Below are positions 43,651 through 63,068 of a stretch of DNA of 64,000 nt, piece by piece; position 1 is the stretch's first letter; each line of letters opens with the position of its first letter. The notes beneath the pieces are model-generated. The model worked only from the letters and a program-made list of their open reading frames with translations. It did not search any database and was not told the DNA's origin. The position numbers and the translations under genes were made by a program. Source of the stretch: Hyphomicrobiales bacterium. Lineage in GTDB: Bacteria; Pseudomonadota; Alphaproteobacteria; Rhizobiales; Rhizobiaceae. The stretch covers positions 62,001-126,000 of the forward strand of contig UICE01000008.1 of NCBI GenBank assembly GCA_900471815.1. Reading direction: 5' to 3'.

Positions 43651-45051
43651 CTACGAGAAGCTTGTGTCTGATACTGTCTGATACATCGCACGCAGGCGAC
43701 GTTGTTTTGAATCGAAAACATGGTTCTTTTCAAGTTTTCCCGGATCACATGGCAGACTTATGTGAGCGACCAAGCCAGACGTACTCTTGTTCTTCAGAAA
43801 AATGGAACCGCCATGACCTTTGACAATATCCTGCACAATTGAAAGGCCGAGACCAAACCCACTCGTAGAACGAGCGGGACTGACTTTGAAGAATGGTTCG
43901 AACACTGTGGTTTGAAGCTCCACCGGTAGCCCAGGACCATCATCCGAAACCTCGATTGCCAAAGCACCATCTCCTGATGACACAAGTGACACAACAACAT
44001 GCGTGCCAAACTTGGTCCCATTGTCTACCAGGTTGGTAATGGCGCGGCTTAAAGCGCGAGGCTTGCAGAGATAGGCCAGACGGTCTGGGCCTGAATAGCT
44101 TACATTGAAGCCCACATCTGCGAAATCAGAACAGACGGTACTGAGAAGGCTGGGCAAGTCTGAGCGCAACGGCGCTTCGGAAGATACTTCCTTGCTCAGA
44201 TAGGTGAGGGTTTCCCTCATCATCCCATTGATCGTAGCGATATCATTTAACATCAATTCACGCAAAGCGCCGTCTTTTGAGCGCTCGACGCGAAGCCGCA
44301 ACCGAGTGAGCGGGGTTCTGAGGTCATGGCCAATGGCGCGCAGCATCCGGGTTCGGTCATTCATCATGCTGCGCAACCGGCTACGCATGTCATTCAGAGC
44401 ACGGGCCAGTGCAACAACTTCTTGTGCACCGCGCTCTTCGAAAGGTCGATCAGGACCCTCTTCTGCGCTTAATACCAAAGCGGCCGCGGAAAAACGCGAC
44501 AATGGAGCGACGATCATACATCCGGCATAAAAAGCCAGAAGGATTACCGGCACCACAATTGCCAAAACTTTCAAAACAGAATTGAAACGCGTTTCCAGCG
44601 ACCAGAATTCTTTTGGTTCCGGGCGGATTGCAAAGGCTAAGGATTCAGTGGGAGTTATTTTGACCAGCAGGACATTGTCCACGTCTGACGATCTCAGCGC
44701 CGTGGGGAACTTGCCTGTCAGCGCGTCGCGGACTCGCGTGCCAAGACCGGTTGTCTGATCCATGTTTGAGGCTGCTTTTTCAAACTCAGCATTGCCAATT
44801 TTTTCGACCGGTATGTCGCTGTTGGCTGTCACCTGCAAAACTATATTGCGGTTCTCGGGAGTTTTGGCTGCCAGAAACTGATTTGCCACAGTTTCGATTC
44901 TGATAGCGGTTGAACGGTGATAAGGAACTGAATCATCAAACACCAGGGGCTCTGTAACGACACCCATCGCGCAAGCAATCAAAATAGGTGCAATTGCCAG
45001 CGCGATGATCTGTCCGCGAATGGTGTCGAGATTGGACGATTGCAGCATCAT
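43651..45051 (-). CDS. Sensor histidine kinase, EnvZ/OmpR-partner type
   Basis: 466 residues from ATG 45051, which overlaps the regulator stop by 4 bases. Membrane helix 1 is 'IIALAIAPILIACAMGVVTE', helix 2 is 'VLKVLAIVVPVILLAFYAGC', and the periplasmic loop between has about 140 residues. A HAMP segment ('APLSRFSAAALVLSAEEGPD') leads to the phospho-histidine box 'RAIGHDLRTPLTRLRLRVER'. The ATPase boxes are 'NLVDNGTKFG', 'DDGPGL' and 'GFGLGLSI'. The tail after 'ISLPCDPGKL' is longer than usual. The signal is unknown. Confidence 0.9.
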   Translation of the reverse strand: MMLQSSNLDTIRGQIIALAIAPILIACAMGVVTEPLVFDDSVPYHRSTAIRIETVANQFLAAKTPENRNIVLQVTANSDIPVEKIGNAEFEKAASNMDQTTGLGTRVRDALTGKFPTALRSSDVDNVLLVKITPTESLAFAIRPEPKEFWSLETRFNSVLKVLAIVVPVILLAFYAGCMIVAPLSRFSAAALVLSAEEGPDRPFEERGAQEVVALARALNDMRSRLRSMMNDRTRMLRAIGHDLRTPLTRLRLRVERSKDGALRELMLNDIATINGMMRETLTYLSKEVSSEAPLRSDLPSLLSTVCSDFADVGFNVSYSGPDRLAYLCKPRALSRAITNLVDNGTKFGTHVVVSLVSSGDGALAIEVSDDGPGLPVELQTTVFEPFFKVSPARSTSGFGLGLSIVQDIVKGHGGSIFLKNKSTSGLVAHISLPCDPGKLEKNHVFDSKQRRLRAMYQTVSDTSFS

Positions 45052-45788
45052 ACACGCTCCACTTTTGGCGTGAAAAGATAACCGGCAAGCCGGACCGTTT
45101 TGATGAGAGTAGGCTCTCGAACATTTGGCTCTATTTTTTGCCTCACCCTGCTGACATGAACGTCGATACTGCGCTCGACAGGGCCTGCGGCACCGGCATG
45201 CGTCAAACTCAAGAGTTGTTCGCGGGTAAGCACCTTGCCGGGATTCCGGCAAAATGCGAGCAGCACGTCAAATTCCGCTGTTGTCATTGAGATGTGGACC
45301 CCATTGGGATCACGTACCCGCCGCAATATCGGGTCAATCCGCCATCCTTCAAATTGCAAGGGGTCCTGTGTTTGGGGGCTGGCAGAAGTGTACGACGAGC
45401 GTCGAAGCAGGCTTTTAATCCGCGCCAGAAGTTCGCGCGAGTTGAATGGTTTGGTAATATAGTCGTCAGCGCCCAATTCAAGGCCAACGATACGATCAAT
45501 ATCATCACTGAGAGCCGTTAGCATTATGATGGGAGTTGTCGCCTGTGCACGCAGTCTGCGACAAATACTGAAACCGTCCTCACCGGGAAGCATGACATCC
45601 AGAATAATAAGATCGAATGATTGCTCGCGAAGCAAAACTTCCATTTCCGCCGCAGAACCCGTGGCAACAGCGTTAAAGCCATTGTCCAACAAGGTTTCTA
45701 TGACCATGTTCGCGATCTCGGGGTCATCTTCCACGAGAAGCACTCTTGCAGACTGATCCAAGACTGTCACACGCATGTGAATATTCAT
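45048..45788 (-). CDS. Two-component response regulator, OmpR/PhoB type
   Basis: 246 residues from ATG 45788; a later ATG at 45776 is also possible. Receiver: 'VLLVEDDPEIANMVIETLLD', phospho-aspartate in 'LIILDVMLPGEDGF', 'DDYITKPFNSRELLARIKSL'. The winged-helix output domain has 'VHISMTTAEFDVLLAFCRNP' and 'SIDVHVSRVRQKIEPNVREP'. It is coupled to the kinase by a 4-base overlap. The MipA/OmpV gene upstream is separated by about 170 bases and may be a target. Confidence 0.9.
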   Translation of the reverse strand: MNIHMRVTVLDQSARVLLVEDDPEIANMVIETLLDNGFNAVATGSAAEMEVLLREQSFDLIILDVMLPGEDGFSICRRLRAQATTPIIMLTALSDDIDRIVGLELGADDYITKPFNSRELLARIKSLLRRSSYTSASPQTQDPLQFEGWRIDPILRRVRDPNGVHISMTTAEFDVLLAFCRNPGKVLTREQLLSLTHAGAAGPVERSIDVHVSRVRQKIEPNVREPTLIKTVRLAGYLFTPKVERV

Positions 45789-45955
45789 TCCCCAGCCCCC
45801 CAAACCATAATTCGGTGTGAGGGTAAATAATGTCCCATGAATGGCGTTATGGTGTCATTCGGAGCCACATTTGGTTGCGTTGAAAATTAGGATGGAAATC
45901 ATGTCGACGCGCGAGCCTCGGAACCGTGACATTGAATAATTTTGTCATCTCTGGA

Positions 45956-50806: not shown

Positions 50807-51724
50807 TTAGGTGCTGTGCAATATTCGGGCGGCTTTGACGGCAGCAGTGGCACGGTTTTCGACACCCATCTTGATATAGACTTGTTCCAGGTGTTTGTTG
50901 ACAGTCCTGGCGCTCAATCCGAGAATATCACCAATGTCTCGATTTGATTTGCCCTTTGCAATCCATAAAAGAACCTCAGCTTCCCGTGCAGTCAATCCGA
51001 AGTGCTGGCGCAGCAGTTCCTCTGGGCTGGCCTGATTGGCGAGGGTTAGTCGGAACAAATATTCATCAGAGGTGAGGGCACCAAGATAGCTCAACTGCAG
51101 TCCCCCTTGCTCTCCAGGGATTGTAATGGGGTTGCCGTCTTTGTGACTTTGTTGCCTGGTCAGCCATGCCGCGACGCTCACCGAAAGTGCCTTATAACCG
51201 GCTTGTGTGCTGCCCATGGTCAGCTCTATCAGGTGGTTTGCCTGCGGAGTGGACCAGCGCAGTTGGCCATCTTTTCCAATTGCAAGAAGGTGGCGACCCG
51301 CGGCATCCAGCGCTATGCGCGCATTTTGGGCGGCGCGAGCATTGGCAAGGTGAACTCTGATCCTTGCCTGTAGTTCATCAATATTGATCGGCTTTGTCAG
51401 ATAGTCCACGCCACCGGACTCAAGTGCATGGACGATGTGCTGGGTCTCGGAAAGACCTGTCATGAAAATAACCGGCACCTGGGTAACCGAAGCTGTGGTT
51501 TTGATTCGGGTGCAGGTTTCAAATCCGTCCATCTCCGGCATTATCGCATCCATCAAGATGATATCGGGTGTTATACGTTCGACAACATTGAGTGCGGCGT
51601 GGCCCGACGTTGCAATCAAAACAGAAAAACCCGATTGCTCCAGCGCGTCCGTCAGAAACCCAAGGGTTTGCGGCGAGTCGTCGACAATCAGGACAATATC
51701 GCGCGGATTGGTTGGCTCACTCAC
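50807..51724 (-). CDS. Response regulator with LuxR-type output
   Basis: 305 residues from GTG 51724, which overlaps the kinase stop by 8 bases (GTGAGTGA). The receiver domain has 'VLIVDDSPQTLGFLTDALEQ', phospho-aspartate in 'IILMDAIMPEMDGF' and 'VDYLTKPINIDELQARIRVH'. A middle region of about 100 residues has a PAS-like feel ('LLAIGKDGQLRWSTPQANHL'). The C-terminal LuxR helix-turn-helix is 'LTAREAEVLLWIAKGKSNRD' and 'ILGLSARTVNKHLEQVYIKM'. It is the partner of the transporter-kinase and, by position, the likely regulator of the divergent urt-ure operon. Confidence 0.87.
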   Translation of the reverse strand: MSEPTNPRDIVLIVDDSPQTLGFLTDALEQSGFSVLIATSGHAALNVVERITPDIILMDAIMPEMDGFETCTRIKTTASVTQVPVIFMTGLSETQHIVHALESGGVDYLTKPINIDELQARIRVHLANARAAQNARIALDAAGRHLLAIGKDGQLRWSTPQANHLIELTMGSTQAGYKALSVSVAAWLTRQQSHKDGNPITIPGEQGGLQLSYLGALTSDEYLFRLTLANQASPEELLRQHFGLTAREAEVLLWIAKGKSNRDIGDILGLSARTVNKHLEQVYIKMGVENRATAAVKAARILHST

Positions 51725-54700
51725 CTCTGATCGCCTCTTCCTGATTTTCGAATGTGCGAAGGAAACGGTCATATCCTGCCAGATCGAACATCTGAACGAA
51801 TTGCCCCAGTGCCTCGGTAAACGCCCGGTTGTCTTCGATTTTCGCCAACTCGGCAATCTTTGTCTCAATGCCGCGGATGTACCCAATCTCGCCAAGATTG
51901 ATCAATTCACGCACATGCGTTTCACCGGGACTGACCAGTTTACGCGGTATGAGCGATGGGGGCGATGTCGCATCAGCGTAAACCCACTCCAGGCCCAGAA
52001 GCTGTGCGATCTTGTTTTGAAGCTGCCGAAGGTCAAAAGGTTTTGCGAGTGTGTCATTGTGGCCAGTTGGCCCGCCTGTGGGCGCTGCATCGCCTATATT
52101 GGCTGAAAGCATAATAATTGGCGAAAGCTCGCCAGCTTCACGCAGTCGTCTTACCAATTGCCACCCATCCATTTGCGGCATGGAAATATCAATCAGGAAC
52201 AGGTCAGGAACGACCCCCTCGATAAGGGTAAGGCATTCTGGTCCGCTGGCGGCAGTTAACACGATGAAATCGAGGGGAACGAGAATCTCTCGCACCAATT
52301 CGCGATGATCTTCATTATCGTCGACAACAACGATGGTGCGCCGCTGCCCGGCGTAGCTGCGAATTTTTCGCGGCAAGGGCTGCTGTTGATGCGAGGGTGT
52401 TATGGCAGAAAGCATTAGCCTGATCTTGAACGTAGATCCTTGCCCATAGGTACTGGAAACCAAAATCTCGCCGCCCAACGTTTCGGTTAACAGACGGGTG
52501 ATTGTGAGCCCAAGGCCGAGGCCTGGCATTGGTTGAATGTTCTCGGCTTCTCCTCGCTGAAAAGGCTCGAAGATACGCGGAAGATCTGAATCTGAAATTC
52601 CTCGACCGGTATCCAAAATCGTAAATGTTGCGACCTGACTGCGGTAGGTCACATCGAATAGGACACTGCCGCTTGTCGTAAATTTGATCGCATTGGACAA
52701 GAGATTAACGAGGATTTGCCGAAGGCGCTTTTCGTCCGTCCGGACATAGGGCGGCAAATTGCTTGAACGTTTATGCTTGAAGATGAGTTGTTTGGCATCG
52801 GCCTGTGGTTGAAACATCTGCACGATCTGGTCCAGAAAGTCGCTAAGATTGATCTCGTTGGAAAAGACCTGCAACCGGCCGGCTTCGATGCGTGAGATGT
52901 CGAGTAGTCCGTCAATGAGGCCTGACAAATGATCGGCGCTTCGCTTGATAACGCGAATTGCGGACTGGCGTGGAGCAGGGATTGTTTCGTCTCGTTCCAG
53001 TATTTGTGCGTAGCCAAGCACGGCGTTCAAGGGGGTGCGCAGTTCGTGACTCAGACCGATCACATACCTGCTTTTTGCGCGATTGGCGGCCTCGGCCGCG
53101 TCCTTTGCGTCCTGAAGAGCGGCGTCCGTTTTCTTATGAGCGGCTATTTCCTTTAACAGAAGGGTATTCTGACGCGAAGACTCTTCCTCAGCAACAACAC
53201 GGCTGTCATGTGCCAGCACATAGAACCAACAGGCAATTCCTGTTACGACTGCAAATACAAAAAATACGATCAACAGCGTTCGGTCTACAACGCCCGACGT
53301 TTCAGATGGCCCTCCTGCCTGATGGGCTATCATGGTTAGAATTATGCCGATTGCCGTTAGAGCGATGATAACAGAGATTCCGTACCGTCCCAGTCGCGAT
53401 GCAAGTGCCTGGATGATGCGTTGCGGCAAAAAAGAGCGAGCCACGATAGCGACCTGTGCGTTGAAATTTGCGTTAGGTTTGCACATGTCGTGGCAGCGGC
53501 TGTCGAGGGAGCAGCAAAGCGAGCAGATCGGAGCGCTATAGGCGGGACACCAAGCCATGTCCTCGGGTTCAAAATCGTGCTCGCAAATCGAGCATTTGAG
53601 TGTCTGCAGTGTTTTCCAAGCCCGCCGAGGCTTCCGCACCAGATAGTATTTTCCCTTGGTCTGCCACGCGAGCAGTGGCGAGACAATGAAAGCTACAACA
53701 AGCGCTATGAATGGTGCGAGCGCGGAGGCCATCTCACCGAAGAAACCGAAATGCGCGATCAGCGATATCATTGTCGCCGCAGCCATCGTTCCGAGGCCCA
53801 CCGGGTTAATATCGTAAAGATGAGCACGCTTGAATTCTATGCCGGGCGGGGCCAGTCCTAGTCTTTTATTGACAAAAAGGTCAGCAGATATGGCGCAAAG
53901 CCAAGCCATGGCAATAAGCGAAAAAATACCTAAGGTTTCTTCGAGCAATCTGTAGATGCCAAGTTCCATCAGCAAAAGCGCAATTGCAACATTGAACAGC
54001 AACCAAACCACGCGACCGGGATGACTATGCGTGAGCCGGGAAAAGAAATTCGACCAGGCCAATGAACCCGCATAGGCGTTCATCACGTTGATTTTAAGCT
54101 GCGATACCACCACAAAACCAACCATCAGCATCAACGCTAAAGTATCGGAATGCGTGACGTAACCGAATGCAGTCAGATACATTTGTGAAGGGTCTGACGC
54201 GCGATCGACCGACACGCCGCTGCTAAGTGTGAGCACCACGAGAAACGATCCGGCGAGAAGTTTCGGGGCACCGACTAGGACCCAGCCCGGACCGGCAAGA
54301 AATACCGCAATGCGATGTCGCAGTTTTCGCTGCCCTTTGGGCGGCAAAAAGCGCAGAAAGTCAACTTGCTCGCCGATTTGAGCCATCAGAGCCAAGATTA
54401 CTGCACTGGCTGCACCGAACTGCGCCAGCACAAAAGGGGCGCTTGTTCCAGGAATTGCGACCGGCACATCGACACCTGAAAAAGCCCGCCAAAGATCAAA
54501 TTTTTCCCAATCCACGAAAGCAATTACGACGAAAGGGAGGATGTTCAAAATGATCCAGAAAGGTTGTGTAATCAGCTGAAACTTGCTGATCATCCGAACG
54601 CCGTAGGTGACCAGAGGAACCACAACCACGGCGCTGATAATATACCCAATCCACAAAGGAATTCCGAAAGCCAACTCCAGAGCACCGGACATGATCGACG

Positions 54701-55100
54701 CTTCGATAGCAAAGAGCAGGAAGGTGAACGTTGCATATATCAAAGAGGTGATTGTTGATCCGATGTAACCAAAGCTTGCCCCACGGGTCAGAAGGTCGAT
54801 ATCGACACCGTGGCGGATGGCGTAACGGCTTATTGGTAGCCCCACACAAAGCATGACGAGGCAGGCAACAGCGATCGCAGCTACAGCATTGGTGGTGCCG
54901 TAGGATAACGTGACGGCGCCGCCGATAGCCTCCAGCGCGAGAAATGAAATTGCGCCAATTGCTGTTTGGGCAATGCGTTGCGATGAATAACGGCGAGCGC
55001 TCTTCGCAGTAAAGCGAAGGGCGTAATCTTCCAAGGTCTGATCCGCTACCCAGCGATTATAGTCGCGTCTGATAGGAACGATGCGTTGGCGCGCAACCAT
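51717..55100 (-). CDS. NCS1-transporter-domain hybrid sensor histidine kinase/response regulator
   Basis: 1127 residues. Residues about 20-480 are a full NCS1-type (cytosine/purine/hydantoin permease) membrane domain with about 12 helices ('LSYGTTNAVAAIAVACLVML', 'LTRGASFGYIGSTITSLIYA'). A cysteine cluster follows at 503-540 (C503, C506, C518, C526, C529, C530, C536, C540), then two helices (about 573-630). The HisKA box SHELRTPLN has H685, the HATPase has NLLSNAIKF, DTGRGI and GLGLGL, and a receiver at 922-1035 has D971 in 'LIDISMPQMDGW'. The C-terminus (1040-1127) has no clear domain. Thus a transporter-like sensor feeds a phosphorelay, as SLC5-kinase fusions such as CbrA do. The ligand is probably a nucleobase, hydantoin, allantoin or urea-related compound (inference). 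Confidence 0.88.
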   Translation of the reverse strand: MVARQRIVPIRRDYNRWVADQTLEDYALRFTAKSARRYSSQRIAQTAIGAISFLALEAIGGAVTLSYGTTNAVAAIAVACLVMLCVGLPISRYAIRHGVDIDLLTRGASFGYIGSTITSLIYATFTFLLFAIEASIMSGALELAFGIPLWIGYIISAVVVVPLVTYGVRMISKFQLITQPFWIILNILPFVVIAFVDWEKFDLWRAFSGVDVPVAIPGTSAPFVLAQFGAASAVILALMAQIGEQVDFLRFLPPKGQRKLRHRIAVFLAGPGWVLVGAPKLLAGSFLVVLTLSSGVSVDRASDPSQMYLTAFGYVTHSDTLALMLMVGFVVVSQLKINVMNAYAGSLAWSNFFSRLTHSHPGRVVWLLFNVAIALLLMELGIYRLLEETLGIFSLIAMAWLCAISADLFVNKRLGLAPPGIEFKRAHLYDINPVGLGTMAAATMISLIAHFGFFGEMASALAPFIALVVAFIVSPLLAWQTKGKYYLVRKPRRAWKTLQTLKCSICEHDFEPEDMAWCPAYSAPICSLCCSLDSRCHDMCKPNANFNAQVAIVARSFLPQRIIQALASRLGRYGISVIIALTAIGIILTMIAHQAGGPSETSGVVDRTLLIVFFVFAVVTGIACWFYVLAHDSRVVAEEESSRQNTLLLKEIAAHKKTDAALQDAKDAAEAANRAKSRYVIGLSHELRTPLNAVLGYAQILERDETIPAPRQSAIRVIKRSADHLSGLIDGLLDISRIEAGRLQVFSNEINLSDFLDQIVQMFQPQADAKQLIFKHKRSSNLPPYVRTDEKRLRQILVNLLSNAIKFTTSGSVLFDVTYRSQVATFTILDTGRGISDSDLPRIFEPFQRGEAENIQPMPGLGLGLTITRLLTETLGGEILVSSTYGQGSTFKIRLMLSAITPSHQQQPLPRKIRSYAGQRRTIVVVDDNEDHRELVREILVPLDFIVLTAASGPECLTLIEGVVPDLFLIDISMPQMDGWQLVRRLREAGELSPIIMLSANIGDAAPTGGPTGHNDTLAKPFDLRQLQNKIAQLLGLEWVYADATSPPSLIPRKLVSPGETHVRELINLGEIGYIRGIETKIAELAKIEDNRAFTEALGQFVQMFDLAGYDRFLRTFENQEEAIRGE

Positions 55101-55179: not shown

Positions 55180-55352
55180 GGATGCGATACGGAAGAAAGC
55201 ACTGATCTGCCAACTTAGGTCATCGTCTCTACGTCGTTTAACGTATGTGGGATCGTTGTTGGCTAGCAGATAGTCCCTAAACGCAGCGGATTTGTTCTGC
55301 CGCACATGGATAACAAGGCGCAATCAGCGTCGTTCAAAACAGTGGGGACATA

Positions 55353-56648
55353 ATGATGAATATTAAAGCACAGGTTAAAGGCGCTCTGTTAGCCGCCATG
55401 CTTTCTGCAACAGCGCTTCAGGGCGCGTTTGCCGCAGAAGATACGATCAAAGTCGGCATACTTCATTCCCTTTCGGGAACAATGGCCATCTCTGAAACCA
55501 CGCTTAAGGACGCCATGTTGATGCTCATTGATGAGCAAAACAAAAAAGGCGGGATTCTTGGCAAGAAAATTGAGGCTGTTGTTGTTGATCCGGCTTCAGA
55601 TTGGCCGCTTTTTGCTGAGAAAGCCCGCGACCTCATCGAAAAGGACAAGGTTGCTGCCGTCTTCGGCTGCTGGACTTCCGTATCACGCAAATCGGTGCTG
55701 CCCGTTTTCAAAGAGTTGGACAATTTGCTCTTCTATCCTGTCCAGTATGAAGGTGAAGAGAGCGAGCGCAATGTGTTTTATACTGGCGCAGCACCCAACC
55801 AGCAGGCAATTCCTGCTGTCGACTATCTTGCTGAAAATGAAGGTGTCGAACGCTGGGTCCTTGCTGGCACCGATTATGTCTACCCGCGCACAACCAACAA
55901 GATACTCGAGGCCTATTTGAAGGCCAAGGGCGTTGCGGCTGAAGACATCATGGTGAGCTACACACCTTTCGGACATAAAGACTGGCAGACCATCGTTTCA
56001 GACATTAAGAAGTTCGGTTCCGCGGGTAAGAAGACGGCCGTTGTCTCAACCATCAACGGCGACGCAAACGTTCCGTTTTATAAAGAGCTCGGTAATCAAG
56101 GCATCAAGGCTGAAGATATTCCGGTTGTAGCATTTTCTGTCGGCGAGGAAGAGCTTGCCGGACTTGATACGACACCGCTCGTCGGTCACTTGGCGGCCTG
56201 GAACTACTTCCAATCGGTCAACACACCGGCCAACGCCGAATTCATCAAGACTTGGAAAGCCTATACCAAGGACGACAAGCGCGTAACAAACGATCCAATG
56301 GAGGCCCATTATATTGGTTTCAATATGTGGGTGAAAGCTGTCGAAGCCGCCGGAACCACAGATCCGGATAAGGTCATTGATTCCATTGTCGGCGTGTCGG
56401 TGCCCAATCTCTCCGGCGGCTACTCAACGATGATGCCAAACCATCACATCACAAAGCCTGTCCTCATTGGCGAAATTCAATCGGACGGCCAGTTTGAAAC
56501 CGTGTTCGAAACACCCGGATTGCTGGTAGGGGATGAATGGTCCGACTATCTGCCGGATTCCAAAGATCTTATCTCTGATTGGCGCAAGCCAATGTCATGC
56601 GGCAATTTTAATGTCGCAACCGGCAAATGTGGCGGCAAAGGCTCCTAA
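55353..56648 (+). CDS. urtA: Urea ABC transporter substrate-binding protein
   Basis: 431-residue periplasmic urea-binding protein of the branched-chain-type family. Signal peptide 'VKGALLAAMLSATALQGAFA'. UrtA features are 'TIKVGILHSLSGTMAISETT', 'GCWTSVSRKSVLPVFKELDN', 'LLFYPVQYEGEESERNVFYT' and 'AYTKDDKRVTNDPMEAHYIG', which separate it from LivJ. It is the first gene of urtABCDE-ureDAJBC. A second ATG three bases on (55356) is an alternative start. A terminator-like hairpin follows at 56660-56685. Confidence 0.95.
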   Translation: MMNIKAQVKGALLAAMLSATALQGAFAAEDTIKVGILHSLSGTMAISETTLKDAMLMLIDEQNKKGGILGKKIEAVVVDPASDWPLFAEKARDLIEKDKVAAVFGCWTSVSRKSVLPVFKELDNLLFYPVQYEGEESERNVFYTGAAPNQQAIPAVDYLAENEGVERWVLAGTDYVYPRTTNKILEAYLKAKGVAAEDIMVSYTPFGHKDWQTIVSDIKKFGSAGKKTAVVSTINGDANVPFYKELGNQGIKAEDIPVVAFSVGEEELAGLDTTPLVGHLAAWNYFQSVNTPANAEFIKTWKAYTKDDKRVTNDPMEAHYIGFNMWVKAVEAAGTTDPDKVIDSIVGVSVPNLSGGYSTMMPNHHITKPVLIGEIQSDGQFETVFETPGLLVGDEWSDYLPDSKDLISDWRKPMSCGNFNVATGKCGGKGS

Positions 56649-56734: not shown

Positions 56735-58351
56735 ATGTATCGCGCAATCAAAATACTTATGCTCATCATCTGTCTGATCATGCTTGTTCCGGTATCGGAA
56801 AGTTGGGCCGATCAGAATAACCGCTTGGGTATAAATGCCTTGGGTCAGGGTAACTTTTCACAGGTTGCCGATAAGATCGCCGAACTATCCCGTACTGGCG
56901 ATATTGCGCTTGTCCCAGTGTTTGAAGCGCTGGCAGCAGGTGACCTTTATGTGAGAAAAGCCGATAAGACCGTCTTTGTAGTCAAGGAAAATGGTAGTGA
57001 ACTGAACCTGTCTGATGCTGTAACCGGGGCGCCAGCGGGACAAGGGGCGAAAGCCGATTTCGAGCGCATCAAGGTTAATAATAGTCTGCGTCGCGCTGTC
57101 AAAACCGCCATTGGAGCGCTCACGCTGCTCAGCCCGGATAGGGAGATAAGACTTCGGGCGGCCAGTTCAGTTTTTTCCTCGCCGAGCACAGACGCGCTTG
57201 AGCTCATAGAGACGGCAATAACAAGCGAGAAAGACACCTATATCAAATCTGTCATGGAGCAGGCGAGGGCCGCTGCTATTTTAAAGTCAGATCGCTCGCT
57301 TGATGACAAGCGCGCCGCTGTAAAAACAATCGGAGAGCGTGGTGACAGAGATGCTCTTGGCATATTGAGTGCCGTTCAGGCAAACGCTGATGGCGAGCTT
57401 CGGACAGACATAGACAATACCATAAATGCGTTACAGTCAGCTCAGGCGCTTTGGGATGTCGGCCAGAATGTCTGGTACGGCTTGTCCCTTGGATCCGTCC
57501 TTTTGCTCGCTGCTATCGGCCTTGCCATTACTTTTGGTGTGATGGGCATCATCAATATGGCCCATGGTGAAATGGTGATGCTTGGCGCCTACACGACGTT
57601 CATGGTCCAAGAGATAATCAGGTCGTCCTATCCGCATCTTTTTGACTGGTCATTGATTATCGCACTCCCGGTTGCGTTCGCTATTACGGGTGTCATTGGT
57701 CTTATAATTGAACGTGGAATTATTCGTTTTCTCTATGGGCGACCGCTGGAGACATTGCTGGCAACGTGGGGCGTATCGCTTATTCTGCAGCAGGGCGTTC
57801 GTTCAATCTTCGGCCCCAGCAATCGTGAAGTCGGAAACCCGTCGTGGATGTCAGGCGGTTTCGAACTTGGTGGTATGACGCTGACCTATAACCGCATGTG
57901 GATTGTGGTGTTTGCTGCAGGCGTATTCCTGACGTTGCTGTTCGTGCTTAAGCGCTCGAGATTTGGGTTGCAAATGCGTGCTGTTACGCAAAACCGAAGG
58001 ATGGCATCATCAATGGGTATCAAGACCCCTTGGGTCGATGCTTTTACCTTTGCCCTTGGTTCAGGCATTGCTGGGATTGCCGGCGTTGCCCTTTCGCAAA
58101 TTGATAACGTCTCACCCAATCTTGGTCAAAGCTACATTATTGATAGTTTCATGGTTGTAGTTTTCGGCGGCGTTGGAAATCTCTGGGGCACGCTTGTGGG
58201 GGCACTTTCGCTTGGCGTCGTCAATAAGCTCCTTGAACCATATACCGGTGCCGTTCTTGGCAAAATTCTTATCCTGGTTCTCATCATTCTTTTTATTCAG
58301 AGGCGGCCACGCGGGCTCTTTGCACTCAAGGGAAGGGCGGTGGAAGCATGA
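56735..58351 (+). CDS. urtB: Urea ABC transporter permease
   Basis: 538-residue inner-membrane permease. As in other UrtB proteins, the LivH-like membrane domain (from about residue 250, 'NVWYGLSLGSVLLLAAIGLA') is preceded by a signal peptide and a periplasmic domain of about 220 residues rich in helix pairs. Motifs of the membrane part are 'ITFGVMGIINMAHGEMVMLG', 'ETLLATWGVSLILQQGVRSI' and 'VVVFGGVGNLWGTLVGALSL'. The stop overlaps urtC by 4 bases. Confidence 0.94.
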   Translation: MYRAIKILMLIICLIMLVPVSESWADQNNRLGINALGQGNFSQVADKIAELSRTGDIALVPVFEALAAGDLYVRKADKTVFVVKENGSELNLSDAVTGAPAGQGAKADFERIKVNNSLRRAVKTAIGALTLLSPDREIRLRAASSVFSSPSTDALELIETAITSEKDTYIKSVMEQARAAAILKSDRSLDDKRAAVKTIGERGDRDALGILSAVQANADGELRTDIDNTINALQSAQALWDVGQNVWYGLSLGSVLLLAAIGLAITFGVMGIINMAHGEMVMLGAYTTFMVQEIIRSSYPHLFDWSLIIALPVAFAITGVIGLIIERGIIRFLYGRPLETLLATWGVSLILQQGVRSIFGPSNREVGNPSWMSGGFELGGMTLTYNRMWIVVFAAGVFLTLLFVLKRSRFGLQMRAVTQNRRMASSMGIKTPWVDAFTFALGSGIAGIAGVALSQIDNVSPNLGQSYIIDSFMVVVFGGVGNLWGTLVGALSLGVVNKLLEPYTGAVLGKILILVLIILFIQRRPRGLFALKGRAVEA

Positions 58352-59535
58352 TCAGCGCGTTCGTTTTTAAATCGCTCGACAGGAATGTCTCCCTCTGCAT
58401 TGCAATCCTTCTGGCCATTGCATGCTTGGTACCCGCACTTAATCTTTTAGTGCCAGCCGACAATCTATTTCATATTCCAACCTACGCGATGTCGCTATTT
58501 GGAAAATATCTCACCTATGCATTGCTAGCCCTGGCGCTTGATCTTGTCTGGGGTTTTTGCGGGATATTGTCTCTTGGACATGCCGCATTCTTCGCCCTTG
58601 GCGGCTATGTCATGGGAATGTATCTGGTTCGCCAAATCGGCGCACGCGGCGTCTATGGAAACCCAAATCTGCCAGATTTCATGGTGTTTTTGAATTGGAA
58701 GGAAATGCCTTGGTATTGGTATGGCTTTGACTACTTCTGGTTCGCCGCCATTATGATATTCGCCGTTCCTGGTATTCTTGCTTTTGTGTTCGGCTGGCTG
58801 GCATTCCGCTCGCGTGTAACAGGCGTCTATCTGTCCATTATCACGCAGGCGATGACCTATGCCTTACTGCTTGCCTTTTTCCGCAATGAAATGGGATTTG
58901 GCGGTAATAATGGCCTTACCGATTTTAAAGACTTGCTAGGCTTCAACATTCAATCGCAAGGCATGAGGGCATCCCTGTTCGCCGCGTCTGCGTTCGCGCT
59001 GGCAGTCGCGCTGCTTATCAGTTCAGCTATCGTTCGATCAAAATTTGGGAAGGTTCTGGTTGGTCTGCGCGATGCTGAGAGCAGGACGCGCTTTCTCGGT
59101 TACCGGCCAGAAAATTACAAGCTCGTTACCTTTACCATTTCAGCAATGATGGCAGGTGTTGCCGGTGCGCTTTACGTTCCGCAGGTCGGGATTATCAATC
59201 CCGGTGAATTTGCACCAGCCAATTCGATCGAAGTCGTCATCTGGACCGCCGTTGGAGGACGTGGAACACTCATTGGTCCTATCATTGGGGCTACACTTGT
59301 AAATTTCGGCAAGAGTATTTTCACTGCACAGTTTCCGGAAATTTGGCTTTTTGCGCTGGGGGCACTTTTCGTTGCAACCACGTTGTTCTTGCCCAAAGGC
59401 ATCGTTGGGACCATTCAGCAAATATTGAAATCCAGAAACGATAAAAACAGAGCGATTTCCTTTAACCGCCTGCCTAAAGCCAAGAATGCCGAAAAGAACG
59501 CTGATATCCCTGCTGAACCACTGGCTGCGGAGTAG
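58348..59535 (+). CDS. urtC: Urea ABC transporter permease
   Basis: 395-residue LivM-like permease. 'LALDLVWGFCGILSLGHAAF', 'VYLSIITQAMTYALLLAFFR', 'NNGLTDFKDLLGFNIQSQGM' and 'IEVVIWTAVGGRGTLIGPII' follow UrtC. The C-terminal 35 residues are basic and polar and cytoplasmic. It is coupled to urtB by ATGA and to urtD by a 3-base gap. Confidence 0.94.
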   Translation: MISAFVFKSLDRNVSLCIAILLAIACLVPALNLLVPADNLFHIPTYAMSLFGKYLTYALLALALDLVWGFCGILSLGHAAFFALGGYVMGMYLVRQIGARGVYGNPNLPDFMVFLNWKEMPWYWYGFDYFWFAAIMIFAVPGILAFVFGWLAFRSRVTGVYLSIITQAMTYALLLAFFRNEMGFGGNNGLTDFKDLLGFNIQSQGMRASLFAASAFALAVALLISSAIVRSKFGKVLVGLRDAESRTRFLGYRPENYKLVTFTISAMMAGVAGALYVPQVGIINPGEFAPANSIEVVIWTAVGGRGTLIGPIIGATLVNFGKSIFTAQFPEIWLFALGALFVATTLFLPKGIVGTIQQILKSRNDKNRAISFNRLPKAKNAEKNADIPAEPLAAE

Positions 59536-59538
59536 ATC

Positions 59539-60291
59539 ATGTCTGACATCAAACCAAGGAGCCTGTTGTATCTAGACAATGTATCCGTATCATTCGACGG
59601 CTTTAGAGCACTGAACGCCTTGTCTTTTGTGATTGCTCCCGGTGAGTTAAGGGCAATTATTGGCCCAAACGGTGCCGGTAAAACGACAATGATGGATATT
59701 ATCACTGGAAAGACCCGGCCGGACGAGGGTGAGGTATTCTTCGAAGATAACATTGATCTTACGACCAGAGACGAGGCTGATATCGCTCAGCTTGGCATCG
59801 GCCGCAAATTCCAGAAGCCCACAGTGTTCGAAAGCCACACTGTCTGGGATAATCTCGAGCTGGCGCTTAATCGTAAGCGGGGAACCTTTGCGACGTTATT
59901 CTATAATCTATCGCCAGAGGATAGCGCTCGTATCGATGAAATTCTTGAAACCGTGCGACTGACCGCACGCAAGGATGAACTGGCGGCCAATCTTAGCCAT
60001 GGGCAAAAACAATGGCTGGAAATCGGTATGCTCCTGGCGCAAGAGCCCAAACTCTTGCTTGTTGATGAGCCAGTGGCGGGAATGACCGATGCGGAAACTT
60101 CTGAAACCGCCGCTCTGCTCAAAGAGATTGCGAAAACCCGGGCGGTCATCGTTGTTGAACACGATATGGGCTTCATCCGCGATCTTGGCGTGCGGGTCAC
60201 ATGCCTCGCTGAAGGCTCGGTACTTGCTGAAGGGTCACTTGATTTCGTCAGTAATGATCCCCGAGTCATAGAAAACTATTTGGGGAGGTGA
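59539..60291 (+). CDS. urtD: Urea ABC transporter ATP-binding protein
   Basis: 250-residue LivG-like ATPase. Walker A GPNGAGKTT, signature 'LSHGQKQWLEIGMLL' (the LSHGQ variant typical of UrtD), Walker B 'LLLVDEPVAGMTD', switch histidine in 'VVEHDMGFI'. It forms the ATPase pair with UrtE on the cytoplasmic face. Confidence 0.95.
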   Translation: MSDIKPRSLLYLDNVSVSFDGFRALNALSFVIAPGELRAIIGPNGAGKTTMMDIITGKTRPDEGEVFFEDNIDLTTRDEADIAQLGIGRKFQKPTVFESHTVWDNLELALNRKRGTFATLFYNLSPEDSARIDEILETVRLTARKDELAANLSHGQKQWLEIGMLLAQEPKLLLVDEPVAGMTDAETSETAALLKEIAKTRAVIVVEHDMGFIRDLGVRVTCLAEGSVLAEGSLDFVSNDPRVIENYLGR

Positions 60292-60294
60292 GCC

Positions 60295-60990
60295 ATGCTG
60301 TCTGTTGAACAAGTCAATTTGCATTATGGCGCGGCGCAAGCCTTGCGGGGGATTACGCTGGACGCCAACGCTGGAAAGATCACCTGCGTGCTCGGTAGAA
60401 ACGGTGTTGGTAAAACAAGCTTATTGAGAGCGATTACCGGTCAGCACAATATCAGCGCGGGTAAAGTGATGTTCGATGGTGTTGAACTCAATGGTATGGC
60501 CCCATACACGCGGGCGAAATATGGCATTGGTTATGTACCGCAAGGCCGTGAAATTTTTCCGCTTTTGAGCGTTAAGGAGAACCTTGAAACCGGTTATGCG
60601 CAGCTTCCCCGCTCCGAACGAAATATCCCCTCGGATGTTTACAACCTGTTTCCCGTCCTGAAATCCATGTTGTCGCGTCGTGGCGGTGATCTTTCCGGTG
60701 GTCAGCAACAGCAACTCGCCATCGGGCGCGCATTGGTCATGCGCCCCAAAATTCTGGTTCTTGATGAGCCCACCGAAGGAATCCAGCCGTCGATAATCAA
60801 GGATATCGGTCGCGCCATCGTTTACCTGCGAGATTCTTTCGGAATGACGATACTTCTTGTCGAACAGTATCTCGACTTTTGTCGCGAACTCGCGGACCAT
60901 GTTTACATCATGGATCGAGGTGAGATCGTCGCCGAGGGCGCTGCGGAAATTCTCGACACGACTGAAGCGCGCCGGCATCTGACGGTCTGA
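60295..60990 (+). CDS. urtE: Urea ABC transporter ATP-binding protein
   Basis: 231-residue LivF-like ATPase. Walker A GRNGVGKTS, 'GYVPQGREIFPLLSVKENLE', signature LSGGQQQQ, Walker B 'ILVLDEPTEGIQPS', switch histidine replaced by glutamine in 'LLVEQYLDF', as usual for LivF/UrtE. It follows urtD after 3 bases and precedes ureD. Confidence 0.95.
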   Translation: MLSVEQVNLHYGAAQALRGITLDANAGKITCVLGRNGVGKTSLLRAITGQHNISAGKVMFDGVELNGMAPYTRAKYGIGYVPQGREIFPLLSVKENLETGYAQLPRSERNIPSDVYNLFPVLKSMLSRRGGDLSGGQQQQLAIGRALVMRPKILVLDEPTEGIQPSIIKDIGRAIVYLRDSFGMTILLVEQYLDFCRELADHVYIMDRGEIVAEGAAEILDTTEARRHLTV

Positions 60991-61014
60991 CCATTGGGGT
61001 TACAATTTTTGGAT

Positions 61015-61842
61015 ATGCTCGGCCAGACGACGATTGTTCAAAACCGGGCGCAGCGCGCATCCGGGGCAGGACGATTATCGGCACGGCGGGTAGAGGGAAA
61101 AACGCGGATTTCCACATTGTTTCAGGAGGGGTGTGCGAAACTGCGCTTTCCAGTCAGTTCTGGAAACCATCTGGAAGCAGTCATGATCAACAGTGCAGGT
61201 GGTCTTACAGGCGGCGATGCGATGCAGTGGAGTTTTGCCCTCGGCGATCATTGCGCGGCTCAAATAACGACCCAGGCTTGCGAGAAAATCTATAAAGCTG
61301 TTTCAGGGACAGTCGCCACCGTCTCGACTCAAATTGACGTTGGACCTGATTCCTATGTTGCATGGCTACCGCAAGAAACCATTCTGTTCGAAAAAGCCGA
61401 TCTCAAGCGAACGCTAAATGTAAATCTTGCTGCGCGTGCGCGGGCTTTGCTGGTTGAATCCACCATATTTGGGCGAAAGGCCTTTGGCGAGACAATCGAA
61501 ACTGCGCAGTTTTCTGATCAGTGGCGTGTCCGGCAAGACGGCAGACTACTCCACGCCGAGAACTTCTCCATCGGCCCTCAGGCTGGGTTATCATTGAAAC
61601 GGCCAGCCCTGCTTGGAAGCTATCATGCGGTGGCAACGGTACTTTTAGTTTCTCCGGATTGCGAGCGGTTACTTGATTCGGCGCGCCTAATCATAGGTGA
61701 TCAAGGAGGCGCATCAGTATGGATGGGCAAGCTTGTGGCTCGCTTGGTAGATTTTGACGCTTACCACCTGCGCAAGCGCCTCATCCCGCTGCTCGGCCTG
61801 CTGAATGGCGGCGAAGATCTGCCGCGAATATGGACAACATAA
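61015..61842 (+). CDS. ureD: Urease accessory protein UreD
   Basis: 275 residues from ATG 61015; a TTG at 60994, 3 bases after urtE, would add seven residues and has no clearer ribosome site. UreD is the scaffold that, with UreF and UreG, opens apo-urease for nickel and CO2 loading. Family motifs are 'EGCAKLRFPVSS', 'NSAGGLTGGDAMQWSFALGD', 'AAQITTQACEKIYKA' and 'WLPQETILFEKADLKRTLNV'. The C-terminal 'RLIPLLGLLNGGEDLPRIWT' is normal. It joins the urea uptake and urease parts into one transcription unit. Confidence 0.92.
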   Translation: MLGQTTIVQNRAQRASGAGRLSARRVEGKTRISTLFQEGCAKLRFPVSSGNHLEAVMINSAGGLTGGDAMQWSFALGDHCAAQITTQACEKIYKAVSGTVATVSTQIDVGPDSYVAWLPQETILFEKADLKRTLNVNLAARARALLVESTIFGRKAFGETIETAQFSDQWRVRQDGRLLHAENFSIGPQAGLSLKRPALLGSYHAVATVLLVSPDCERLLDSARLIIGDQGGASVWMGKLVARLVDFDAYHLRKRLIPLLGLLNGGEDLPRIWTT

Positions 61843-61857
61843 AAGGAAAATCAAACG

Positions 61858-62160
61858 ATGAATTTACTGCCGCGCGAGAAGGACAAGCTGCTGATTTCCA
61901 TGGCAGCCATGGTGGCGAGGCGCCGTCTGGAGCGTGGTGTGAAACTCAATCATCCCGAAGCTATCGCTTTGATCACCGACTTTGTCGTTGAGGGTGCGCG
62001 TGATGGCCGATCTGTCGCGGATCTCATGGAAGCCGGCGCGCATGTGATCACACGTAGTCAGGTGATGGAGGGTATTGCCGAGATGATTCACGACGTTCAA
62101 GTCGAAGCAACCTTCCCCGATGGCACCAAGCTTGTCACAGTTCACGAACCGATCCGGTAG
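61858..62160 (+). CDS. ureA: Urease gamma subunit
   Basis: 100-residue structural subunit. '[20 protein letters not shown]' and '[20 protein letters not shown]' then '[20 protein letters not shown]' are diagnostic. It assembles with UreB and UreC. Separate gamma and beta genes are the normal bacterial arrangement. Confidence 0.96.
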
Positions 62161-62181
62161 TTGGTATTTAGAGAGAAACTC

Positions 62182-62760
62182 ATGAAGAAAATATTGTTAT
62201 TGACTTTGCCTCTGGCCTTGGCAGCGACCACTCCTGCCCTTGCTCATATCAACCCTGCGGAACACGGCTCGTTCGGTGCAGGTTTTTCCCATCCAATCTC
62301 TGGCGCGGACCACATGCTGGCGATGGTAGCCGTTGGGCTATGGGCCGTACTGCTTGGGGGACGCGCCATGTGGCTGATCCCGGCTGCATTCGTTGGCACA
62401 ATGATTGCAGGGTTCTTGTTGGCTATCGCCGGCGTGAAGCTACCATTTGCCGAGCCTGCAATTCTTGCTTCAGTTGTCGCTATCGGATTGTTTGCTGCCG
62501 TGGCACTCAAGGTTCCAACGTCGTTGGCAATGGCTCTCGTTGGTTTTTTCGCACTGTTTCATGGTTATGCCCACGGTAGTGAAATGGGCACGGCCACCGC
62601 TGGCAGCTATCTTCTTGGCTTTGCGCTTGCGACAACTTTGCTTCACGTTGCGGGGCTGGCTGCTGGTGCTTTATTGGGTGCCGGCATCGGGCGCACCATC
62701 ATCCGCGTAGCGGGTGCAAGCACAGCATTCATTGGTCTTTGGTTGGCGCTTGGAGCATGA
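62182..62760 (+). CDS. ureJ: HupE/UreJ-family nickel transporter or accessory protein
   Basis: 192 residues from ATG 62182, with AGAGAG upstream. Signal-like helix '[20 protein letters not shown]' followed by the HupE motif '[20 protein letters not shown]' and five or so further helices. HupE/UreJ proteins carry nickel across the inner membrane for hydrogenase or urease. The gene is inserted between ureA and ureB and its stop overlaps a possible ureB start. Nickel supply to urease is the likely role. Confidence 0.9.
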
Positions 62761-62762
62761 GT

Positions 62763-63068
62763 ATGATTCCTGGTCAAATTATAACGGTGGCAGGGGACAT
62801 CGAACTTAATGTCGGAGCCCCCGTCACTGTCTTGAAAGTCGCCAACACAGGTGACCGTCCAATCCAGGTCGGATCGCACTATCATTTTTATGAGACCAAT
62901 GAGGCATTGGTTTTTGATCGGCAACTGACCCGGGGCATGCGGCTGGATATTGCTGCCGGCACGGCTGTGCGTTTCGAGCCAGGTCAGGAACGCGATGTGA
63001 CATTGATACCGTTTGGCGGCGACCGCGTGGTTTATGGATTCCAACAGAAAATCATGGGGAAGCTCTGA
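62763..63068 (+). CDS. ureB: Urease beta subunit
   Basis: 101 residues from ATG 62763 (MIPGQI, the usual UreB start), with GGAG seven bases upstream inside the ureJ end; ATG 62757 would give two more residues. Features are '[20 protein letters not shown]', '[20 protein letters not shown]' and '[20 protein letters not shown]'. The next gene starts after one base. Confidence 0.95.

Follow-up and report, generated by a model that had tools for sequence, protein, structure and literature searches.

Urea is a major nitrogen compound of soil and fertiliser, and we know of no bacterial membrane sensor for urea that has been described. A stretch of 64,000 nucleotides from a Hyphomicrobiales bacterium (contig UICE01000008.1, positions 62,001 to 126,000; 'the window' means this whole stretch) raises the question of what such a sensor could be made of: it encodes a hybrid histidine kinase with a transporter-like input domain, and the genes for urea transport (urt) and urease (ure) run divergently from it, beginning at 55353 (Table 1). 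What does this kinase sense, and which genes does it control? Comparison with its relatives makes it probable that the protein is a transceptor for urea or short-chain amides, acting on urt-ure via a palindromic operator.

Architecture of the sensor kinase

The original prediction, made from the letters of the window, had described one chain of 1127 residues with HisKA (H685), HATPase and receiver (D971), and the open reading frame (ORF), Pfam matches and conserved phospho-acceptors confirm it. H685 is the histidine of a SHELRTP motif and is conserved in all 114 kinase rows of the alignment; D971 is conserved in all 104 rows of the long kinase form. Hydrophobic segments are abundant from residue 1 to about residue 490 (hydropathy), and this membrane domain is followed by a cysteine linker and two further hydrophobic segments that precede the kinase core. 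The cysteine cluster, also noted earlier, is invariant: all eight cysteines are present in 114/114 kinase rows, in a 4+4 pattern that the original prediction had not mentioned. No Pfam domain was detected in the linker (Pfam was not checked for a STAC model), and the window protein has no Pfam match to an SLC5 (SSF) input domain. The match to the kinase sits within a single open frame, whose length is about 890-1260 codons in most of the genomes matched and greater in a few, and the architecture is therefore not a chance fusion. No second copy of the membrane domain was found in the own genome at E ≤ 1e-5.

The HisKA-HATPase-REC kinase is adjoined by a REC-GerE regulator and thus has the make-up of a hybrid kinase with a LuxR-type partner; this pairing, too, is as originally predicted. 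As the GTG start of the regulator at 51724 lies inside the last kinase codons, the regulator likely has 305 amino acids and is not the 362-amino acid ORF. A relay from the receiver to an HPt domain was considered and dropped: the C-terminal tail, the sole candidate region, has no conserved phospho-acceptor histidine (by eye).

Distribution and linkage to urea and amide genes

Kinase residues 1-640 served as query in overlapping genome samples that include the own genome. At family level 63 of 199 genomes had a match, at order level 88 of 297 (G228, G252, G316 and G441 through weak matches alone), at class level 14 of 240 and at phylum level 42 of 349. Named genomes contain at least 573 confirmed relatives, the closest among the matches listed being Phyllobacterium sp. 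YR531 (91% over 640 amino acids). There are also 526 matching plasmid records, 342 of them from Klebsiella; a few of the 526 are stand-alone permeases.

Neighbouring genes were scored in two sets of loci. The named set consists of the best 80 of the at least 573 confirmed relatives, i.e. the most similar ones and not a random sample. The diverse set comprises 100 further loci with about 9 kb of flank per side where the contig allowed: 13 non-own matches of the class, 22 kinase places in 19 genomes of the same phylum and 65 chosen rows of family and order. Family rows of at least 63% identity, fragments of G050 and one of two G185 rows were left out, as were, from the order, mainly extra members of genera already sampled.

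In all 80 named loci a true urtA is encoded no more than 10 kb away on the opposite strand, and 59 of them have ure genes within the stretch as well; the case for urt-ure control had been staked on such a conserved linkage in relatives, and it withstood this check. In the diverse set, tblastn placed urea genes, or else formamidase and/or amide-type ABC transporter genes, next to 96 of 100 kinases, the median distance to the nearest linked gene being 377 bp (81/96 within 1 kb). Twenty-four of these loci have urtA, five urtA and ure and four ure alone; 52 have an amide-type binding protein and the formamidase FmdA, one the binding protein alone (L182, near a contig end) and ten, all with short kinases of about 880-900 amino acids, FmdA alone.

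The amide type, which goes beyond the original prediction, was seen with annotation in the Klebsiella plasmid pJYC02A, in Thioclava and Chelatococcus and in Burkholderia vietnamiensis pBVIE02. On pJYC02A (L283, 5909-15381), amide-type kinase, Urt-like transporter and formamidase are all plasmid-borne. The linked operons contain two unrelated formamidase families, FmdA (PF03069/NF045496) and a nitrilase type (NF009803): in Thioclava and Klebsiella the enzyme annotated as formamidase is a member of the nitrilase superfamily and not an FmdA, and the one of Thioclava passes the formamidase model NF009803. The common feature is therefore the substrate, not the enzyme.

When a quick IQ-TREE phylogeny was constructed from 116 rows, urea and amide linkage clustered on the tree (six changes of the urea label, against a mean of 35.1 in shuffled data; none of 500 shuffles was as low), and the starred branches force at least four changes between the two. 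The tree was rooted on two long stand-alone branches, and the direction of change was therefore not inferred. Residues that change with the linkage were sought (position 236 is a candidate) and none is claimed: supported branches offer only four independent pairs, and a test for specificity residues therefore cannot reach significance.

A palindrome between kinase and transporter genes

The putative operator, an element absent from the original prediction, is a palindrome of the consensus TACGTC-N4-GACGTA, which in the window precedes the urtA start codon by 107 bp. The pattern TACGT-N6-ACGTA matches the own genome once, at this very site, and the reversed control pattern matches six times. 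In divergent intergenic regions shorter than 500 bp it is present in 49/64 of the urtA type and 15/50 of the amide type; in one shuffled set of such regions no 5-base dyad had a count above 2, the highest reached. The relaxed form used for scoring, TACG-N8-CGTA, is found in all 80 named loci and in the kinase-transporter intergenic region of 135 out of 162 loci (104/109 urtA-type, 31/53 amide-type). The intergenic regions, window included, have 138 sites in 131 kb; the 161 other loci, 3.28 Mb in full length, have 155, i.e. 18 outside those intergenic regions.

This enrichment is not independent, because the motif was discovered on largely the same regions. Better evidence is the position of the site: it is at most 250 bp from the transporter gene in 133 of the 135 regions (median 92 bp, quartiles 90-96), and of the 44 gaps that measure at least 800 bp, 40 have the site at the transporter end, two have it by the kinase alone and two (L204, L236) have none. 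Loci outside the discovery also have a site in the expected gap: Klebsiella (L283), Thioclava (L286), Chelatococcus (L287), Burkholderia (L314), Methylovirgula (L312) and S. meliloti (L119), where it remains by urtA. L300 has one site before a distant urtA and another before the kinase, and further sites precede the formamidase of Thioclava (L286, 18337) and the aliphatic amidase of Methylovirgula (L312, 11536).

The recognition helix of the regulator, RTVNKHLEQ, is conserved where the site is present; in 22 of the 27 site-less regions the helix has F for Y, and a shorter dyad, CGTCA-N2-TGACG, is left in five of the 25 site-less regions short enough for the scan. A pattern search in the 199 family genomes gave matches in 85. 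Several of the extra ones look like chance, and those in L301, L302, L303 and L304, which could be tied to no sensible target, were left out.

Linkage and palindrome together support a kinase-regulator pair devoted to genes for urea or short-chain amides, the regulator being predicted to act at the palindrome. Control of urt-ure, as originally proposed, thus stays the likely function: the linkage is near-universal and the palindrome appears to be dedicated to it.

A membrane domain with moderate kinship to NCS1 permeases

Direct searches did not place the membrane domain in any family: it has no Pfam match at E ≤ 0.01 or 0.1, no NCBIfam match at E ≤ 1 and no sequence match to PDB chains, and a profile of 24 sequences gave one weak, irrelevant match in the PDB. 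Its closest kinase-free relatives, a clade that the original prediction had not noticed, are permeases of 535-562 amino acids, annotated as 'allantoin permease', 'cytosine permease' or 'hypothetical', seven of which are 39-46% identical to it in the alignment. The Klebsiella permease (39.7% identity to the window protein over residues 21-533) matches PF02133 (Transp_cyt_pur) with 38.1 bits at a cut-off of 23.5, making the window domain a full-length homologue of a PF02133 protein. The earlier label of NCS1-like thus stood in part, through this permease and an hhalign comparison with E. coli CodB, and found no direct match in Pfam or PDB.

With the NCS1 permeases (CodB, Mhp1, MetT) the domain is connected by a colinear similarity of its first half to CodB, weak by profile, and by one member of its clade that passes PF02133; unlike them, it is found in another genomic setting and the kinases have not kept the nucleobase-stacking aromatics as a pair. 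In CodB, the base is sandwiched between W108 and F204, two aromatic residues described as a pair that is conserved throughout the family (PMC9379551). In a register taken from the hhalign alignment and a DxxRF motif, the equivalent of W108 is position 129, which is F in 76 of the 114 kinase rows and L in the other 38 (the window protein has L), and that of F204 is position 238, with L in 113 and V in one. Loss of the Na2 threonines is probable, as judged by eye; a register for transmembrane segment 8 (K336 at CodB T278), also by eye, was not confirmed. As the stacking aromatics are not kept, we call the domain NCS1-related and not a canonical NCS1 member, with a kinship that by sequence is moderate, and expect a small, non-aromatic ligand. 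NCS1 proteins can take small guanidine compounds, as MetT does (PMC13390362).

Eight of the 18 stand-alone permeases listed were inspected, and urease, formamidase or amidase genes adjoin the permease in seven. It lies within urease operons in K. pneumoniae, A. ursingii and A. lwoffii, beside a formamidase gene in Moraxella and Tsukamurella (0.8 kb apart in the latter), next to an aliphatic amidase in Arthrobacter, and between an amide-type kinase-regulator pair and an aliphatic amidase in Methylovirgula; the Streptomyces permease has none of these genes nearby. A CxxC...CxxC tail ends six of the eight, that of Methylovirgula having the eight cysteines of the kinases; the Arthrobacter and Tsukamurella permeases lack it. 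The input domain of the kinases and its linker therefore resemble a permease from this clade whose tail has been elaborated.

Kinase residues 1-639 contain 90 positions that are invariant in all kinase rows except the fragment L215, and 67 of these are also kept in both stand-alone permeases aligned, which are from urease loci. Among the shared ones are the polar residues E133, Q241, E244, Q334, K336 and N338. E57 is present in all 113 kinase rows that have a residue there, and the two stand-alone permeases compared have F.

Proposed mechanism and alternatives

The membrane domain would derive from a little-known NCS1-related permease branch with urea and short-chain amides (formamide, acetamide) as substrates. 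The window sensor may bind urea outside the cell or within the membrane, and a conformational change would travel along the cysteine-rich linker, which probably binds zinc, and the final pair of hydrophobic segments until it reaches the HisKA/HATPase core, altering phosphorylation of H685. The kinase would phosphorylate the co-translated LuxR-type regulator directly, with its own receiver (D971) as intramolecular modulator or phosphate sink, and a dimer of phosphorylated regulator on the palindrome would activate urtABCDE-ure. We infer both the binding of urea by the membrane domain and that of the regulator to the palindrome; activation rather than repression is suggested by the distance of the site from the urtA start codon and by the precedent of CrbR (see below). 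Where the gap is short, the divergent kinase promoter may be tuned from this site as well. Sister lineages would use the same device to control an Urt-like amide ABC transporter together with formamidase or amidase.

For the wider group we lean, with somewhat less confidence, towards an NCS1-related branch specific for urea and short-chain amides, with the stand-alone members as a new bacterial carrier class and the kinase fusions as a transceptor family of Alpha-, Beta- and Gammaproteobacteria that has its own operator and has changed between urea and amide pairing several times independently (at least four).

Several observations weigh against the transceptor reading. PF02133 is matched by only one of 24 family members; hhalign to CodB reaches E 4.7e-4 with a probability of just 32.5% over residues 47-253 (E was 0.14 for the NCS1 permease AllW, 0.74 for an NCS2 protein and 0.58 for a dicarboxylate symporter), and the second half of the membrane domain aligns to CodB no better than shuffled controls. 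The AlphaFold model is poor (mean pLDDT 46.2, pTM 0.38), because the relatives supplied were close ones (77-91% identical), and no residue placement was taken from it; with this model, the top Foldseek hits are mostly LeuT-fold proteins, CodB ranking second and third, none of them at E ≤ 0.001 and with TM-scores below 0.4, which agrees only weakly with such a fold. Four diverse loci have no linked gene (L187, L189, L190 and L215): L215 is a contig of 4.8 kb, while in the other three, with full flanks of about 9 kb, no urea or amide gene was found. The site is absent from 27 of 162 intergenic regions (22 of the amide type), from all ten short-kinase loci and from four urease-adjacent loci without a divergent urtA (L199, L201, L209, L214), and in L188 and L193 the single site is by the kinase and not by urtA. 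Lastly, L306, a family member (L306:3718-6148), has a kinase without the NCS1-type domain and keeps urt, ure, the site and a regulator (47% identical), and control of urt is therefore not strictly dependent on that domain.

L306 also bears on an alternative that we consider unlikely, in which the kinase controls urt-ure via the same operator in response to ammonium or nitrogen status, membrane energy or pH, with the NCS1-type domain as a mere scaffold. A nitrogen response is what urea and amide operons alike would need, but the kinase neighbours are genes for two related substrates (other nitrogen genes were not counted), and the polar invariants among the positions shared with the permeases count against a scaffold, which would not need them. 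A variant of the transceptor reading rather than its competitor, possible yet doubtful, is that the domain is also a working permease and that signalling follows flux instead of binding. The stand-alone relatives have been retained beside catabolic genes, as this would predict; the presence of E57 where those compared have F hints at a change of function, and the adjacent Urt ABC transporter already provides uptake.

That the cysteine cluster is itself a metal or redox sensor (of nickel for urease, of zinc or of the oxidative state), the membrane domain being secondary, could account for its invariance in all kinases but seems improbable: at least four cysteines recur in six of eight permeases that have no kinase, with only the two actinobacterial ones lacking the set, which is more like a structural zinc tail, and nickel would leave the formamidase operons unexplained. 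Of very low probability is a sensor whose cue is purine, allantoin, hydantoin or uracil and which readies the cell for the urea released from them, close to the nitrogen compound of the purine-allantoin-urea route that the original prediction had favoured. Characterised NCS1 permeases do carry such compounds (PMC11633122, PMC9379551), but much of the family is found by formamidase or amidase operons, which are on no purine route, and the kinases have F or L and almost exclusively L in place of the CodB aromatics. Nor was a purine gene noticed in six annotated kinase loci (L119, L283, L286, L287, L312, L314; no systematic count was made), and this part of the original prediction is not supported.

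Relation to known systems

As in the window sensor, a whole secondary-transporter domain is fused to a histidine kinase in CbrA/CbrB, CrbS/CrbR and RpuS/RpuR. CrbR, which is LuxR-type, acts via an inverted repeat and RpuR via a direct repeat, at promoters of uptake and utilisation genes (PMC5715377, PMC9100948, PMC13022988); CrbR, as partner of an SLC5 kinase, requires the inverted repeat at -52 to -36 of acs (PMC5715377). The SLC5-STAC kinases differ from the window sensor, whose input is NCS1-related without SLC5 match, whose linker consists of the cysteine cluster and two hydrophobic segments, and whose linked genes serve nitrogen sources (urea, amides). Amt-HK of Kuenenia is an ammonium transporter fused to a histidine kinase and a sensor of a nitrogen source (PMC5764959). 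It is like the window sensor in that a transporter domain has been turned into a nitrogen-source sensor; unlike it, the window sensor has a paired regulator and an operator by the target operon. The two membrane families we take to be unrelated.

The amide-type loci resemble fmdCABDEF of Methylophilus, which encodes an amide and urea uptake system with formamidase, is induced by formamide and urea, and has a regulator described, in the accessible text of a review, just as 'a putative positive regulator' (PMC10781810). A paper of 2026 proposes from gene order that urtABCDE beside a formamidase could import formamide; a term search of its accessible text found no histidine kinase or two-component system (PMC13209695). 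In titles and the beginnings of abstracts of the papers listed we found no NCS1-related histidine kinase and no two-component system for urt or fmd, nor the urea/amide setting of such a sensor, the operator or the related permease clade; subscription papers were mostly outside this search, and absence is unproven. As SLC5-STAC kinases and Amt-HK are known, the principle of a transporter-kinase is not new; what appears to be new is the NCS1-related version with its urea/amide setting, the operator and the permease clade.

If our interpretation is true, it provides not only a sensor but also a regulator, a 16-bp operator and a candidate class of carriers, and SLC5 and Amt are joined by another transporter family that has become the input of a kinase. 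The substrate range of NCS1-related proteins becomes testable, and a ready biosensor module for urea or formamide would be at hand.

Neighbouring genes and further observations

Table 1. Features of the sensor locus and the adjacent urt-ure genes (positions in the window)
Feature	Position	Strand	Basis
LuxR/GerE-type response regulator, REC + GerE, 305 aa	50807..51724	-	GTG start overlaps kinase stop
Hybrid histidine kinase, NCS1-related transporter-like input domain, 1127 aa	51717..55100	-	open ORF, Pfam
NCS1-related membrane domain, about residues 1-490	53631..55100	-	identity to stand-alone permeases, hhalign to CodB; end placed by eye
Cysteine-rich linker, residues 503-540, eight cysteines	53481..53594	-	alignment of kinase rows
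Two extra hydrophobic segments, about residues 569-634	53199..53396	-	hydropathy only
HisKA, phospho-acceptor H685, residues 676-741	52878..53075	-	Pfam, alignment
HATPase_c, residues 788-897	52410..52739	-	Pfam
Receiver domain (Response_reg), D971, residues 923-1031	52008..52334	-	Pfam, alignment
Predicted operator of response regulator, TACGTCGTTTAACGTA	55230..55245	.	palindrome family TACGTC-N4-GACGTA
urtA, urea ABC transporter binding protein	55353..56648	+	TIGR03407
urtB, urtC, urtD, urtE	56735..60990	+	Pfam BPD_transp_2, ABC_tran; names from order and homology
ureD, ureA (61858-62160), ureJ	60994..62760	+	domain models
ureB-like frame	62739-63068	+	by eye
ureC	63013 to window end	+	

The ten short-kinase loci (L260-L266, L219, L279, L280), with FmdA adjoining and no TACG-N8-CGTA site, appear as a differently wired version of the system: in L261 the next gene encodes a REC-HisKA-HATPase protein, and L279 has an OmpR-type regulator on the opposite strand. 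L187 and L190 have an operator-like site upstream of the kinase despite the lack of a urea or amide gene, which suggests autoregulation or distant targets. The kinase of L306, with a single membrane segment (by eye), is a natural domain deletion.

To the left of the sensor, the window encodes a separate kinase and response regulator (43651-45803), with sub-cut-off best NCBIfam matches to EnvZ and OmpR. Past the right end of the window, frames for ureE and ureF (by eye) are followed by ureG and then by a repABC locus (L282:4188-7840, about 3.2-6.8 kb past the end; RepA and RepC by NCBIfam), and the replicon is therefore probably a repABC plasmid or chromid. On pSymB of S. meliloti, repA and repB likewise adjoin urt genes, and the urt-repABC neighbourhood may be an old chromid core.

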